This document shows positions 13,934 through 20,827 of a DNA stretch of 64,000 nt, piece by piece; the stretch's first letter is position 1; each line of letters starts with the position of its first letter. The stretch is taken from assembly GCF_016623615.1 (NCBI RefSeq), contig NZ_JAEHFX010000002.1, forward strand, positions 558,001 to 622,000, in the 5' to 3' direction. A model generated the notes under the pieces. That model saw only the letters and a list, made by a program, of their open reading frames with translations, was not told the origin of the DNA and did not search any database. This DNA comes from Adhaeribacter terrigena (lineage in GTDB: Bacteria; Bacteroidota; Bacteroidia; Cytophagales; Hymenobacteraceae). Position numbers and translations under genes: made by a program.

Positions 13934-16900
13934 TTAACCCAGTTTTTTCACCGGTTCTTTCACCGGTTTCGGGTCATAATTCAGGTTTGGGGAAAGCCAG
14001 CGTTCCAGTTTATCCTTCGGCATATTTTTGCGTTCCGCAATATCGGAAACCTGATCTTCGCCAATTTTTCCTAGACCGAAATACCGAGAATCCGGATGTG
14101 CGAAATACAAGCCACTTACCGAAGATGCCGGATACATGGCCAGGTTTTCTGTTAATTGAATACCGGTTTCTTCTTCTACTTTTAGCAGGTTAAACAAAGT
14201 CGTTTTCTCCGTATGATCCGGGCAGCCGGGATAACCGGGAGCAGGGCGAATTCCCTGATATTTTTCTTTGATCAGATCTTCGTTCGGTAGGTTTTCCTGC
14301 GGCGCATAACCCCAGAATTCCTTGCGGACTTTTTCATGTAAATGTTCGGCGAAGGCTTCGGCTAAACGGTCGGCCAGGGCTTTGAGCATAATAGAATGAT
14401 AATCGTCGTGTTCCTTTTCGTAATCGGCAAGCAGTTTTTCGATGCCAAACCCTACCGATACCGCAAAGCCGCCAATATAATCGGTAAGACCGGATTCTTC
14501 GGGCGCAATAAAATCGGAGAATGCTAAATTCGGAACGTTTGCGCCTTTTTTACCTTGCTGCCGCAGCGTATGGAAACGGGTTAGTTCCTTGGCTTTCGCT
14601 TCATCTTTATACACCACGATCGTATCATCGGCTTCTGTATTGGCTGAATAAAACCCAATTACCGCGCGGGCTTCGAGTAACTTTTTATCTACAATCTGCT
14701 GCAGCATTTCCTGCGCGTCTTTGTAAAGTTTGGTGGCTTCAACTCCGTAATCCGGATCAGTTAAGATTTTTGGGAACTGGCGTTTTAATTCCCAGGCGTG
14801 GAAGAATGGCGTCCAGTCGATGAAAGGAATTAATTCTGCAATCGGGTAATTCAGGAAAGTTTTATTACCCAGAATATTTGGTTTTTTAATGTCTTCGGCT
14901 TTCCATTCGATCGGAAATTTGTTGGCTCTTGCCTCTTCAATGCTTACAAACTGGCGGTCTTTGGTGCGGCTGAAATGTTCCTGGCGAAGTTCTTCGTACT
15001 CCGCTCTGATTTCCTGATAGTACGTTTCGCGGTTGCTGCCCAGTAAATTACTCACCACCGTTACGCTGCGCGAAGCATCGTGCACGTGCACCACCGGGCC
15101 GCTGTATTGCGGGGCAATTTTTACGGCTGTATGCACCCGCGAAGTTGTAGCGCCGCCAATCAAAAGTGGAATTCTCATTCCACGGCGTTCCATTTCCTGC
15201 GCCACGTAAACCATCTCATCCAAAGAAGGCGTGATCAGGCCGCTCAGGCCCAGCACATCTACTTTCTGCGCTTCAGCTTCGGCCAGAATTTTATCCAGCG
15301 CTACCATTACACCCAGGTCGATCACTTCGTAATTGTTGCAGGCCAACACTACGCCTACAATGTTTTTGCCGATATCGTGCACGTCGCCTTTTACCGTGGC
15401 CATCAGGATCTTTCCGGCAGCATTTCTTCCGCTGCCGGCTTTTTCTTTTTCCATGAACGGCAGCAAATACGCCACCGATTTCTTCATTACGCGGGCGCTT
15501 TTTACCACCTGCGGCAGGAACATTTTACCGGCGCCGAACAAGTCACCAACTACCTGCATGCCCGCCATTAGCGGACCTTCAATTACGTCTAAGGTTTTAT
15601 TTGCCTGCTGTCTGGCTTCTTCGGTATCTTCGTCAATAAATTCTACAATGCCTTTTACCAGCGCATGTTTCAGGCGTTCTTCTACGGTGTTTTGGCGCCA
15701 GGTTTCGTCTTCTTTAGCCTGTGCTTTCCCTTTGCCTTTTATAGTATCGGCGTAGGTTACCAGTTTCTCGGTACTTTCCGGGTTCCGGTTGAAAATTACA
15801 TCTTCGATCAGGTCTTTGAGTTGCGGCTGAATTTCGTCGTAATTTCCCAACATACCGGCGTTTACAATGCCCATATCCATACCGGCTTTCACGGCGTGGT
15901 AAAGGAAAATGGTGTGCATGGCTTCGCGAACCGCATCGTTGCCGCGGAAAGAGAAAGACAGGTTACTTACCCCACCACTTACCAACGCATGCGGCAGGTT
16001 TTGCTTGATCCAGGTTACGGCATTCAGGTAATCTACGGCGTAGTTGTTATGTTCTTCAATGCCGGTGGCAATGGCTAAAATATTCGGGTCGAAAATAATG
16101 TCCTGCGGCGGGAAACCAACTTCATCCACCAGAATTCTGTAGCTGCGTTCACAGATCTCTTTTTTGCGCTCAAATGTATCAGCCTGACCGGTTTCGTCGA
16201 ACGCCATAACGACCACCGCCGCGCCGTACTGACGCACTTTTCGGGCTACTTTTATAAAGCTTTCTTCGCCTTCTTTTAAGCTGATGGAATTTACAATGGA
16301 TTTACCCTGCACGCATTTCAAACCTTCTTCGATCACGCTCCACTTCGAGGAATCGATCATGATCGGGCGTTTGGAAATATCGGGTTCGGAAGCGATGAGG
16401 TGCAGGAAGTTGGTCATGACCGCTTCGGAATTCAGCATGCCTTCGTCCATGTTCACATCGATGATCTGTGCGCCGGCTTCCACCTGCTGACGAGCTACCG
16501 AAAGCGCTTCTTCGAATTGTTCGTTCAGAATCAGCTTGGCGAATTTTTTGGAGCCAGTCACGTTTGTGCGTTCGCCTACGTTCACAAATAAACTTCCCGG
16601 GAAAATGGTAAGCGGTTCCAGCCCGCTGAAACGTGGTAAGGGTTCAATTTCCGGCAACGGACGCGGCTGGTATTTTTCTACGAGTTCGGCAATGCGTTTT
16701 ACGTGGATTGGCGTGGTGCCACAACAACCACCCAGAATATTTACCAAGCCTTCCTTCAGATATTCTTCCACAATAGCCGCCATTTCTTCCGCCGATTCGT
16801 CGTAGCCGCCAAAAGCGTTTGGTAAGCCGGCATTCGGGTACGCGCTGATGAAGGAGCCGGAAATGCGCGATAATTCCTGGATATGGGTTTTGAGCTGACG

Positions 16901-17647
16901 GGCTCCCAACGCACAGTTAAAACCAATGCTTAAAACCGACGCGTGCGAAACGGAATTCCAGAAAGCTTCTACAGTTTGCCCGGAAAGTGTACGGCCGCTG
17001 GCGTCGGTTATGGTGCCGGAGATCATTAATGGGAGTTGCTTGCCGCCGTCTTCTACAAATTGCTGAATGGCAAATAAAGCCGATTTACAATTCAGCGTAT
17101 CGAAAACGGTTTCCACCAAAAGCAGATCGGCACCACCATCGGTTAAGCCTTTTACCTGTTCGTAATACGCCGTTACCAGTTCATCGAAAGAAATAGCGCG
17201 GAAACCGGGACGATTTACATCCGGGGAAAGGGAAGCGGTGCGGTTGGTCGGGCCGATGGCGCCGGCAACGAAACGTGGTTTGTCCGGCGTTTTTGCCTCA
17301 ATTTCGATAGCGATTTCCTTGGCAATGCGGGCAGATTCGTAGTTTAGTTCATAAACGATGCTTTCCAGACCGTAATCGGCCATAGCAATAGTAGTACCGC
17401 TAAAGGTGTTGGTTTCGATAATGTCGGCGCCGGCTTTTAAATATTCGCGGTGAATGTTCTGAATAATATCCGGGCGGGTGATGGAAAGCAGGTCGTTGTT
17501 GCCTTTCAGGTCTTTGGGATGATCTTTGAAACGTTCGCCCCGGAAATCGGCTTCGGAAAGCTTGTAACGCTGGATCATGGTACCCATGGCGCCATCGAGC
17601 ACGAGTACGCGTTGCTGCAGTAAATTATAGATCGGGTGATTTTTCAT
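13934..17647 (-). CDS. metH: Cobalamin-dependent methionine synthase
   Basis: 1237 aa, full multi-domain enzyme. The homocysteine-binding barrel (about 1-330) has zinc cysteines in GFNCALG and GGCCGTTP. The pterin-binding domain (about 350-610) starts [13 protein letters not shown]. The cap and B12 domain (about 660-890) has [11 protein letters not shown], with the cobalt-ligand His in the DxHxxG motif. The C-terminal activation domain (about 920-1230) has [15 protein letters not shown], the SAM-binding signature. It transfers methyl from methyl-THF to homocysteine. A SAM-I riboswitch occupies the leader. The reading frame is intact throughout. Confidence 0.97.
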
Positions 17648-17652
17648 TGGTT

Positions 17653-17660
17653 TCTTTCTT
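17653..17660 (-). promoter_or_regulatory. metH pre-start sequence complementary to distal switch element
   Basis: The minus strand reads AAGAAAGA a few bases before the metH ATG (17647). It can pair with TCTTTCTT in the distal riboswitch element (17691-17684). It also mimics the 5' side of the aptamer P1 region, so it is a likely translation-control target. Confidence 0.5.
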
Positions 17661-17679
17661 CAGGTATTTAAACACAACC

Positions 17680-17819
17680 TATCAAGAAAGACAACCAAAA
17701 CAGAGAGGCTGCAATCCTTATCTTCCCTTACCGAGTTTGGTAAGGAGGGAGGTAGCACCAAGTCGGAACAAGGTTGCTAAGACGTCATCGGGCCCAATCC
17801 CTCGGTCTTTCTTGATAAG
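17680..17819 (-). ncRNA. SAM-I (S-box) riboswitch upstream of metH
   Basis: Read on the minus strand from 17819: CTTATC (5' P1), GACCGAGGGA, GGGCCCGATGA, GCAACC, TTGGTGCTACCTCC, then GGGAAGATAAG (3' P1 at 17722-17717). These are the SAM-I landmarks in order. After the aptamer, GTCTTTCTTGATA (17692-17680) is perfectly complementary to the 5' flank (17817-17805). No T-run terminator follows, so control is probably at translation. Confidence 0.92.
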
Positions 17820-17824
17820 AAGCG

Positions 17825-17857
17825 CAAATGTAATCCCAAATATTCTAATTATCCAAA
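17825..17857 (-). promoter_or_regulatory. metH promoter
   Basis: Minus strand: -33 TTTG (17857-17854), 21-base spacer, -7 TACATTTG (17832-17825). Transcription would begin just before the riboswitch aptamer. Confidence 0.7.
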
Positions 17858-18000
17858 TTTTATTTTTAGCCCGACTTTTAGCCTTGTAAACCATATCATA
17901 TTTTAAACGTGCTAGCTTCAGAAATTATCACTGCTTTTGCTAAAGGGTTTTTTACCAGCTCCAGGCGCGTTTTTAAAAGATAACAAAACGGGATGTTTGG

Positions 18001-18035
18001 AAAAACGATAGGGTTTTAAGTGAAAAAAGTATGGT
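18001..18035 (+). repeat. Dispersed repeat copy in metH/CGS divergent spacer
   Basis: AAAAACGATAGGGTTTT, then GTGAAAAAAGTATGG: forward consensus copy lying between the two promoters. Confidence 0.75.
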
Positions 18036-18090
18036 TGTGAATATTTAAATATCTGATTAACAGGTTTGTAAAAATATTATTAAAAATAAA

Positions 18091-18123
18091 TTTGGAAATT
18101 AAAAAAATAGCATCTTACCTTTG
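18091..18123 (+). promoter_or_regulatory. Promoter of the CGS-hom operon
   Basis: -33 TTTG (18091-18094), 21-base spacer, -7 TACCTTTG (18116-18123). This is textbook Bacteroidota spacing, identical to the divergent metH promoter. The aptamer begins 14 bases later. Confidence 0.8.
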
Positions 18124-18136
18124 TCGCAATAAAATT

Positions 18137-18239
18137 CTTATCCAGAAAGGTGGAGGGACAGGCCCTTTGATACCTTGGCAACCTAACTTTTTAGTAAAGG
18201 TGCTAACTCCTGCTCCGCAGCAATGCGGGGGAAGATAAG
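18137..18239 (+). ncRNA. SAM-I (S-box) riboswitch upstream of CGS-hom
   Basis: CTTATC (5' P1, 18137-18142), GGTGGAGGGAC, GGCCCTTTGA, GGCAACC, AAAGGTGCTAACTCC, and GAAGATAAG closing P1 (GATAAG 18234-18239). These are the SAM-I landmarks in the right order. Its expression platform runs on to the start codon at 18382. Confidence 0.95.
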
Positions 18240-18273
18240 CAAGATCGAGCAACTCGTTGTACCTAAAAAATAC

Positions 18274-18306
18274 AAGCTCTTCTGTCTTATCGGAAGGGCT
18301 TTTTTT
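18274..18306 (+). terminator. Riboswitch-controlled intrinsic terminator
   Basis: AAGCTCTTC (18274-18282) pairs with GAAGGGCTT (18293-18301) and is followed by a run of T. The loop contains CTTATC (18286-18291), which duplicates the 5' P1 strand and could capture GATAAG of the aptamer when SAM is absent, giving an antiterminated state (inference). Confidence 0.7.
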
Positions 18307-18322
18307 ATGCCTTTCCGGTAAG

Positions 18323-18335
18323 CTTTCTGGATAAG
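18323..18335 (+). promoter_or_regulatory. Distal switch element of the CGS riboswitch
   Basis: CTTTCTGGATAAG is perfectly complementary to the aptamer 5' flank (18137-18149). Its CTTTCTG also pairs with CAGAAAG (18373-18379) just before the start codon. The metH leader has the same arrangement. Confidence 0.6.
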
Positions 18336-18381
18336 TGGTTTTGAAAAATTATATCGTTTAACCATAAAAATTCAGAAAGAA

Positions 18382-19566
18382 ATGAAATTAGCAACTACCC
18401 TTTTACACAGCATTCCCACCGATCCGTTAACCGGCGCCATTTCCGTTCCGATCTACCAGACTTCCACGTTCGTGCAGGAAGCGCCTGGCGTAAATAAGGG
18501 TTTCGATTACGCCCGCAGCAACAACCCAACCCGCAAAGTTTTAGAAGATCTGGTCGCAGTGCTGGAAGGCGGCAGCAACGGCTTTGCCTTTGCCAGCGGT
18601 TTAGCTGCCATCGATGCCGTAGTAAAATTGCTGGAAGCCGGCGACGAAATTCTTGCAGTAGATGACATTTACGGCGGCGCATTCCGCCAATTCACGCACA
18701 TTTTCCAGAAATTCGGCATAAAAGTAACCTACGCCGATACCACCAAAGTTGAAAACGTAATTGATGCCATAACGCCGAAAACCAAACTGATTTGGCTTGA
18801 AAGCCCAACCAACCCGACATTAAAAATCTCCGACATCCGGGAGATCGCGAAAATTGCCCAATCCAATAATTGTTTGCTTTGCGTGGATAACACGTTTGCA
18901 TCACCAATTGGCCAGAACCCGATAAAACTCGGAGCCGATTTGGTAATTCACAGCGCCACCAAATACCTGGCCGGTCACTCCGATCTGATCGCCGGAATTG
19001 TAGTTGCCAAAACCCCGGAATTAGGCGAAAAGATCAAATTTATCCAGAATGCTTGCGGGGCCATTTTAGGCCCATTCGATAGCTGGCTGACCATTCGCGG
19101 CATCGAAACGTTACCCTTACGCTTCGAACGCCACAGCAAAAGCGCCCAGCAAATTGCCGAATTCCTGACAACAGTTGATTGTATAAAAAACGTGTATTAC
19201 CCGGGCCTGATCGATCATCAGAATTTTGAAGTTGCGGTAAATCAGCAAACTCAATTCGGCGGCGTAATTGCTTTCGATCTGCATGAAGATTCAGCCGAAC
19301 TGGCTACCGAAGTTGTTTGCTTCACCAAACTTTTCAAACTGGCCGAAAGTTTAGGCGGCGCGAAAAGTTTGCTTTGCCACCCGGCTACCATGACTCACAA
19401 ATCCATCCCACGCGAAAAACGCTACCAGTCTGGCGTAACTGATAGCCTGATCCGCCTTTCCGTTGGCCTGGAAGACGCCGAAGACCTGATCGAAGAGCTG
19501 AGAAACGTTTTCAAAACGATAGGGGAAAAGGTCAAAAAAGTAAACCAAACTACCACCCAAAACTAA
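18382..19566 (+). CDS. Trans-sulfuration PLP enzyme (cystathionine gamma-synthase-like)
   Basis: 394 aa Cys/Met-metabolism PLP family. It shows SVPIYQTSTF, NNPTRKVLEDLVAVLEGG, the Schiff-base K194 in SATKYLAGHSD and the family C-terminal block ESLGGAKSLLCHPATMTH. Placement behind a SAM riboswitch and before hom points to methionine synthesis: cystathionine gamma-synthase or an O-acyl-homoserine sulfhydrylase. Motifs alone do not exclude cystathionine or methionine gamma-lyase. Translation probably depends on the switch described in the leader. Confidence 0.88.
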   Translation: MKLATTLLHSIPTDPLTGAISVPIYQTSTFVQEAPGVNKGFDYARSNNPTRKVLEDLVAVLEGGSNGFAFASGLAAIDAVVKLLEAGDEILAVDDIYGGAFRQFTHIFQKFGIKVTYADTTKVENVIDAITPKTKLIWLESPTNPTLKISDIREIAKIAQSNNCLLCVDNTFASPIGQNPIKLGADLVIHSATKYLAGHSDLIAGIVVAKTPELGEKIKFIQNACGAILGPFDSWLTIRGIETLPLRFERHSKSAQQIAEFLTTVDCIKNVYYPGLIDHQNFEVAVNQQTQFGGVIAFDLHEDSAELATEVVCFTKLFKLAESLGGAKSLLCHPATMTHKSIPREKRYQSGVTDSLIRLSVGLEDAEDLIEELRNVFKTIGEKVKKVNQTTTQN

Positions 19567-19573
19567 GCGAAGC

Positions 19574-20827
19574 ATGTCCAGAAAAAATTTAACCATTGGC
19601 CTGTTCGGTTTTGGTTGCGTGGGTTACGGCCTTTACGAAGTGTTGCACAAAACGCCTGGCCTGCAAACCACTATCAAAAAGATCTGTGTAAAGAACCCGG
19701 AAAAACAACGTCCGATTTCCGCAGGGAACTTCACATTCGATAAAAACGCGATCCTTTCTGACCCGGAAATTAATGTGGTGGTAGAACTGATCGACGATGC
19801 AGATGCGGCTTTTGAAATTGTTTCCGAAGCCATGAAAAAAGGGAAAGCAATAGTTTCGGCGAATAAAAAAATGATCGCGGAACACTTTCAGGAATTACTC
19901 GAGTTGCAGCAGGAATTTGGGGTACCCTTACTTTACGAAGCTGCCTGCTGCGCCAGCATTCCCATTATCCGGAACCTGGAAGAATATTACGATACCGATC
20001 TTTTGCAAAGCTTTGAAGGCATTGTGAACGGCTCCACCAATTACATTTTAAGTAAAACATTTGCTGAAGGCTTAAGCTATAGATCTGCTTTGGAGCAAGC
20101 CCAGGAAAACGGATACGTAGAAACCGACCCGACCTTAGACATTCAGGGAACTGATGCCAAATACAAATTGCTGTTATTGCTGGTCCACGCCTTTGGGCAA
20201 ATCGTAAAACCCGAACAGATCTTCAATTTTGGGATAGACCGGATCTCAGATCTGGATCTTAAGTTTGCGAAAGAAAATGGTTATAAAATTAAAATGGTTG
20301 CACAAGCTTTTAAAAATGAAGACCAAACCGTAAGTTGTTTTGTACTGCCCAAATTCGTAAAACCCGGTGACAAACTTTTTGGGGTGGACGATGTATTTAA
20401 CGGCTTAATAACCCAGAACAATTTTTCTGATACCCAATTTTTCGTAGGCAAAGGTGCGGGCGCTTTCCCAACCGCTTCGGCCGTTTTATCCGATCTTTCG
20501 GCCTTAACCTACGACTACAAATACGAATACAAAAAACTTAATCAGAATAAACGACTTCCCTTAAATAATGAATTTAAGATGGAAGTATTTATTAGCAGTA
20601 AAGAGGCTAGCACAACTATAATCTCTACCTTTTTTGAAAGGGTTTTAGGGGCTTACCGGGGTGAAGAAGAAAGCTATATAAGAGGAGTTATTAAATTCCA
20701 GCAGTTGCAGAAGTTGTTGCATCACCGGCCCTGTGTTTCAATAATTTTATTTGAAGTGGTTCCGGAATTAGAAAGTTTTTCCAAGCAGCACCGGAATGCG
20801 CAGCCATATTTTTTACCGGTATCCTAA
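19574..20827 (+). CDS. hom: Homoserine dehydrogenase
   Basis: 417 aa. GLFGFGCVGYGLYEVL is the NAD(P) Rossmann motif. VSANKKMIAEH and GIVNGSTNYIL are homoserine dehydrogenase signatures, with QENGYVETDPTLDIQGTDAKYK in the catalytic domain. It reduces aspartate semialdehyde to homoserine, the precursor used by the adjacent enzyme. Monofunctional: no aspartokinase domain. The start is 7 bp after the CGS-like stop, so the pair shares the SAM riboswitch. The C-terminal 85 residues past the catalytic domain are not assigned to a known domain. Confidence 0.93.
   Translation: MSRKNLTIGLFGFGCVGYGLYEVLHKTPGLQTTIKKICVKNPEKQRPISAGNFTFDKNAILSDPEINVVVELIDDADAAFEIVSEAMKKGKAIVSANKKMIAEHFQELLELQQEFGVPLLYEAACCASIPIIRNLEEYYDTDLLQSFEGIVNGSTNYILSKTFAEGLSYRSALEQAQENGYVETDPTLDIQGTDAKYKLLLLLVHAFGQIVKPEQIFNFGIDRISDLDLKFAKENGYKIKMVAQAFKNEDQTVSCFVLPKFVKPGDKLFGVDDVFNGLITQNNFSDTQFFVGKGAGAFPTASAVLSDLSALTYDYKYEYKKLNQNKRLPLNNEFKMEVFISSKEASTTIISTFFERVLGAYRGEEESYIRGVIKFQQLQKLLHHRPCVSIILFEVVPELESFSKQHRNAQPYFLPVS

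Follow-up and report, generated by a model that had tools for sequence, protein, structure and literature searches.

The window analysed here is a 64,000-nucleotide stretch of the Adhaeribacter terrigena genome, in which we found two divergent SAM-I riboswitch leaders about 310 bases apart. One precedes metH on the minus strand (13934..17647, AUG at 17647), which encodes a cobalamin-dependent methionine synthase (NF007024 and TIGR02082, both above cut-off). The other precedes a cystathionine gamma-synthase/gamma-lyase family gene on the plus strand (CGS, 18382..19566, AUG at 18382), which is followed by a homoserine dehydrogenase gene (19574-20827, plus strand). The aptamers lie at 17715..17821 (minus strand, metH) and 18135..18241 (plus strand, CGS). 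They are standard ones, as a sequence-only reading of this DNA had held, and match RF00162 over its full length (model positions 1-108) at 75.0 bits (E 9e-16) and 90.4 bits (E 3e-20), respectively, both above the gathering score of 44.4. No other match to RF00162 exists in the whole genome. A genome of the same genus (G001) gave no SAM-I match, although such matches occur in 150 of the 151 genomes searched from the family sample. SAM is the predicted ligand, and the functions of metH and CGS fit this. A promoter-like TAnnTTTG element precedes the aptamer in both leaders (motif matches at 17825..17832, minus strand, and 18116..18123, plus strand), and 176 of 320 leaders of the comparative set described below carry such an element no more than 60 nt ahead of P1. 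The motif by itself was ruled out as promoter evidence, because its 56 matches in the window compare with 59 expected; its position thus only suggests that the transcripts begin close to the 5′ strand of P1.

In both leaders, a 5′ flank made up of the P1 5′ strand, J1/2 and P2 5′ sequence (in CGS, the start of the P2 5′ strand) has a perfect 13-nt complement in a distal element, just as the sequence-only reading had described. In CGS, the flank CTTATCCAGAAAG (18137..18149) is the exact complement of the distal element CTTTCTGGATAAG (18323..18335). On the minus strand, the metH flank TATCAAGAAAGAC (17805..17817, read from 17817) is complementary to GTCTTTCTTGATA (17692-17680), the anti-P1 core of a distal element GGTTGTCTTTCTTGATAGG (17678..17696) whose anti-start part spans 17696-17684. 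The distal element was also said to match the sequence before the start codon; these matches are real in both leaders and longer than first given. In CGS, 18323-18332 (CUUUCUGGAU) pairs with a pre-start copy of the flank, ATTCAGAAAG (AUUCAGAAAG, 18370..18379), through 10 contiguous pairs, one of them G-U, and the helix stops 2 nt short of the AUG at 18382. In metH, minus-strand 17696-17684 (GGUU-g-UCUUUCUU) pairs with the copy AAGAAAGAAACC (17649..17660) through 12 pairs with one bulged G, stopping 1 nt short of the AUG at 17647. We compared these duplexes with 323 gene starts from 400 kb of the same contig. The metH duplex (-19.2 kcal/mol) is equalled by one of the 323 and is thus second best of 324. 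The CGS duplex is weakly unusual in energy (24 of 323 starts are as good), and its 10-bp contiguous core helix is equalled by two of the 323.

The CGS leader was further reported to contain a terminator whose loop repeats CTTATC. It does: an intrinsic terminator hairpin is predicted at 18274..18301, followed by a U-run, and the loop element at 18286..18291 is a copy of the P1 5′ strand. The P1 3′ strand GATAAG (18234..18239) can pair either with the P1 5′ strand or, through six contiguous pairs, with 18286-18291 as an antiterminator. At the U-run the two folds are balanced (P1 plus terminator, -52.9 kcal/mol; antiterminator, -52.2 kcal/mol), and the antiterminator can coexist with the helix between the 5′ flank and the distal element (H1), because it is nested inside H1. 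The metH leader has the same P1 3′ strand (GATAAG, 17717..17722, minus strand, from sequence and the RF00162 match), and no minus-strand terminator was found in it; one of its 42 homologues has one. In the S-box leaders of Firmicutes, the antiterminator forms between the P1 3′ strand and the terminator region. The CGS leader has both features of such a transcription attenuator, and the metH leader lacks the terminator. The idea that the two leaders share one switching logic is therefore right as far as the three-part design goes, which both possess, and incomplete for CGS, which has a second, classical S-box platform on the 3′ P1 strand. The 3′ arm of the CGS terminator can alternatively pair with a conserved segment just past the U-run (CUUAUCGGAAGGGC/GCCUUUCCGGUAAG; 18286-18322 in the window, and homologues), giving a long hairpin whose loop contains the U-run.

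To place the two leaders in context, RF00162 was searched in the family, the order and the phylum, and the matches were combined with 80 CGS loci bearing organism names and with regions extracted from the genomes, giving 329 loci. Aptamers in these loci were located with a purpose-built model and a profile HMM, and start codons were assigned by homology. A total of 321 leaders were classed by their downstream gene; 229 had a suitable length and 207, all from Bacteroidota, were retained as non-redundant after removal of near-copies. In most tests, they comprise 42 metH leaders, 80 CGS leaders (at least 55% identity to the protein of the window) and 85 others. We defined an anti-P1 site as a gapless complement to the 5′ flank scoring at least 8 of 12, with two J1/2 bases masked. 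Such a site is found in 28 of the 42 metH leaders and 37 of the 80 CGS leaders, vs 1.8 and 6.6 expected from shuffled leaders. The rigid site is absent from 14 metH and 43 CGS leaders, a count that leaves out bulged versions, as in L012, and includes some leaders that look different.

The sequence-only reading had staked the design on compensatory conservation of the distal and pre-start segments in homologous leaders, and the design survived this check: the distal element and the 5′ P1 flank covary, and the pairing with the start exceeds the swap controls described below. The masked J1/2 base has no partner in the aptamer model, and it complements the distal base in 27 of 28 metH leaders (13.9 in permutations, p=2e-4) and in 29 of 37 CGS leaders (23.8, p=0.001), p-values that are optimistic because related leaders are not independent. 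The metH pairs are A-U (18), C-G (6) and G-C (3), and on the MetH tree this pair changed about four times among the three types. Both pair types also occur within the present genome, as CAAG/CUUG in metH and CCAG/CUGG in CGS. Among the metH leaders of the window's own family (n = 25), the paired fraction of H1 cells is 90.7% vs 39-47% in slid registers, and the alignment column pair 12-166 is A-U in 18 leaders, C-G in seven and broken in none. The leaders are AT-rich and the elements short, and complementarity might thus arise by chance or from low-complexity composition. This explanation is almost certainly wrong: it is contradicted by the 13-nt perfect complements in both leaders, by the shuffle, permutation and slid-register controls and by the co-changes on the tree, and we rejected it.

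The predicted three-part design is thus a recurrent one in Bacteroidota, beyond the two leaders of the window. We rejected the proposal that every SAM-I leader in the phylum has it, because enrichment is much weaker in the 'other' class, which largely precedes MetY-type genes (21 of 85 with an anti-P1 site vs 7.3 expected; 2 of 32 at p≤0.01).

The terminator layer has its own distribution. An intrinsic terminator lies between aptamer and gene in 65 of the 80 CGS leaders, and in 59 of these 65 the P1 3′ strand and the bases following it pair with the 5′ arm and loop of the terminator at p≤0.05 (for example, GAUAAGUCAGA with UCUGAUUUAUC). As this is the classical S-box layout, the CGS leader could be a plain transcription attenuator, in which the distal element and everything else past the U-run have no regulatory role. 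We consider this improbable. All 30 CGS leaders that have both a terminator and a distal element carry the latter past the terminator. The element occurs far more often than by chance (the 37 of 80 noted above), covaries with the flank and prefers its own start. Moreover, metH leaders use the same element without a terminator.

We investigated the start side as per-leader duplexes with swap controls instead of alignment-column counts; column-wise counting was abandoned because the start region is displaced in MAFFT alignments and the bulge lies at different positions in different genera. Distal/start pairing exceeds the swap controls, in line with the compensatory conservation expected on this side. 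The leader's own start region beats swapped ones at p≤0.05 in 10 of 28 metH and 11 of 37 CGS leaders (30-36%, where 5% is expected); in most single leaders, the pairing is no better than with swaps. Where the distal element has changed, the start-side match follows it, as in L241 (CUUUCCGGAU/AUCCGGAAAG, CCGG), L114 (CUUUUUUGGU/ACCAAAAAAG, UUGG) and L132 (UUGUUAAGUG/CACUUAACAA, UUAAGUG). In L135, from Flavobacteriaceae, CAUUUUUCUA pairs with UAGAAAAAUG, and the P1 5′ strand itself begins with AUGUU.

When the two states were enforced in folding, H1 and P1 were nearly isoenergetic (mean difference -0.8 kcal/mol in metH and -0.2 kcal/mol in CGS leaders). The predicted unpaired probability of the start region is 0.69 in the H1 state vs 0.43 in the P1 state for metH, and 0.66 vs 0.38 for CGS, and the start region is predicted to be more open with H1 in 25 of 28 metH and 34 of 37 CGS leaders. 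With foreign start regions, this opening effect falls from 0.27-0.28 to 0.12-0.16. The own start region outdoes all six swaps in 11 of 27 metH leaders (3.9 expected) and 18 of 37 CGS leaders (5.3 expected). Since the effect is reduced but persists with swapped starts, the gain in accessibility is partly compositional and partly specific. Both window leaders adopt the H1 (ON) state in unconstrained ligand-free folding. For the full-length CGS leader of the window, we obtained -81.5 kcal/mol for H1, -80.2 kcal/mol for H1 plus antiterminator and -77.9 kcal/mol for P1 plus sequestor. The predictions therefore contain what characterizes a translational strand exchange: two mutually exclusive helices of similar stability that share an aptamer strand, and a start-masking helix that forms in the ligand-competent fold only. 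Direct occlusion, which would place the ribosome-binding site (RBS) in the P1 3′ strand and the start codon no more than about 15 nt from P1, does not fit these leaders, whose starts are 67 and 140 nt past the aptamer.

The same data bear on another possibility, in which the distal element, as a remnant or structural copy of P1, does no more than destabilize the aptamer and so tune its affinity for SAM, start masking being an incidental complementarity of T-rich and A-rich sequences. Pre-start regions are A-rich, and hence weak duplexes are common; the accessibility difference that remains with swapped starts and the failure of most single leaders to beat swaps also agree with this explanation. 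Nevertheless, it is quite unlikely, given the large excess over swaps in both gene classes and the way in which the start side follows distal changes in L241, L114, L132 and L135.

Thus, we propose that both leaders are SAM-I translational OFF switches operating by exchange of the 5′ P1 strand, to which CGS adds a terminator platform. We hold this to be probable on the basis of sequence elements, conservation, covariation and predicted energetics; the OFF direction, SAM dependence, the effect on the ribosome and the use of the terminator are what we infer, the direction and the ligand response because repression by SAM is expected for genes of methionine synthesis. Without SAM, the distal element would invade the P1 5′ strand, J1/2 and P2 to form H1, dismantling the aptamer; being occupied in H1, it would leave the A-rich start region free. 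With SAM, P1 and P2 would keep the 5′ flank, and the released distal element would pair with the copy of the flank that precedes the start codon and cover the ribosome landing site. This is the switching order originally suggested from the sequence, and on comparative grounds it is supported by the covariation and the swap controls. In metH, this exchange would be the sole platform. In CGS, the P1 3′ strand would pair with the terminator arm and loop without SAM and would be locked in P1 with SAM, allowing the terminator to form. A single sensor would then gate transcription through one P1 strand and the translation of escaping transcripts through the other. It is also conceivable, although we regard it as rather unlikely, that the main effect of the sequestor comes from Rho-dependent termination or mRNA decay once translation is blocked, rather than from translation itself; other translational riboswitches set a precedent for this, among them dual TPP switches that work via Rho (PMC10907184).

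The aptamer, the terminator/antiterminator pair and the three-element logic are already known. Three-element translational strand exchange, among the start region, a masking element and an aptamer strand, has been reviewed with the TPP class as an example (PMC10907184). There, as here, the masking element can be bound either by an aptamer strand or by the start region, which compete for it. The present leaders differ in having a SAM-I aptamer, in a competing strand that runs from the 5′ P1 strand through J1/2 into P2, and in a start region that bears a copy of the flank instead of a Shine-Dalgarno sequence. The SAM-I switch of the Xanthomonas campestris met operon is likewise a translational OFF switch using start-masking hairpins. 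However, it masks the Shine-Dalgarno sequence and AUG in an expression-platform hairpin, serves Shine-Dalgarno-based ribosome binding and also senses uncharged initiator tRNA (PMC7270179). Control of transcription and translation by one aptamer is a recognized category, the 'dual' class of Barrick and Breaker, in which the RBS lies inside or beside the terminator hairpin, the start lying beside P1 in their direct class (PMC2258182). Here, in contrast, terminator and sequestor are separate, use opposite P1 strands and lie well upstream of the start. Automated schemes label such leaders 'translation attenuation' by default (PMC2258182). With Firmicutes S-box attenuators, the leaders have in common the SAM-I aptamer, P1 as the switching helix and, in CGS, the P1 3′ strand as antiterminator. 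They depart from them in that the 5′ P1 strand is used as well, by an element past the terminator predicted to act on the start codon, and in that metH leaders lack a terminator.

What seems undescribed, judging from sequence comparison and folding models, is the capture of the 5′ P1 strand by a start masker without a Shine-Dalgarno sequence, its spread in Bacteroidota and its addition to an S-box attenuator. We found no description of such a platform in Bacteroidota in the literature searched, which is weak evidence, as subscription papers were mostly outside its scope. Since Bacteroidota mRNAs are devoid of Shine-Dalgarno sequences (PMC6847099, PMC3155529, PMC9976891), a model for how translational riboswitches hide a start in this phylum has been lacking. 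The suggestion that the design exists because the genes lack Shine-Dalgarno sites is consistent with this biology. In a wider reading, to which we give no more credence than to its opposite, the CGS aptamer would run two sequential platforms on opposite P1 strands, a 3′ antiterminator and a 5′ anti-sequestor, so that opening one helix lifts both blocks. The start would mimic the 5′ flank of P1 (in Flavobacteriaceae it would be the flank that mimics AUG), as a phylum-wide alternative to Shine-Dalgarno masking. With their natural covariation, the leaders provide a specific three-segment model open to testing by compensatory mutation. They also suggest that a switching helix can have both of its strands put to use, which bears on the prediction of riboswitch mechanisms and on the construction of SAM-responsive parts in Bacteroidota.

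Some lineages show variations. In the Flavobacteriaceae CGS leaders L135, L123, L152 and L160-L163, P1 starts with AUGUUAUC; the distal element has two alternative partners, this AUG-like P1 strand and the real start codon together with the A-run upstream of it. The overlap is about 3 nt (CAU), and mutual exclusion is therefore weaker there. CGS leaders from another genus of the window's family (for example, L012, L201 and L171) retain H1 with a one-base bulge; on the start side they have another local hairpin, GCGUUUU/AAAACGC, and masking may be solved differently. Outside the window, many SAM-I-type aptamers with a UUUAUA-like P1 (L013, L006, L178, L186 and others) lie mostly upstream of MetY-like genes of the O-acetylhomoserine sulfhydrylase type. 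In 67 of 110 such leaders vs 3 of 211 leaders with a UUAUC P1, the aptamer is followed by a short ORF whose last codons specify consecutive cysteines (such as MCCCCC or MPVRIGSCCCC, each closed by a stop codon). From these sequences, the UUUAUA-like-P1 leaders appear to combine, in tandem, a SAM aptamer and a cysteine leader-peptide attenuator.
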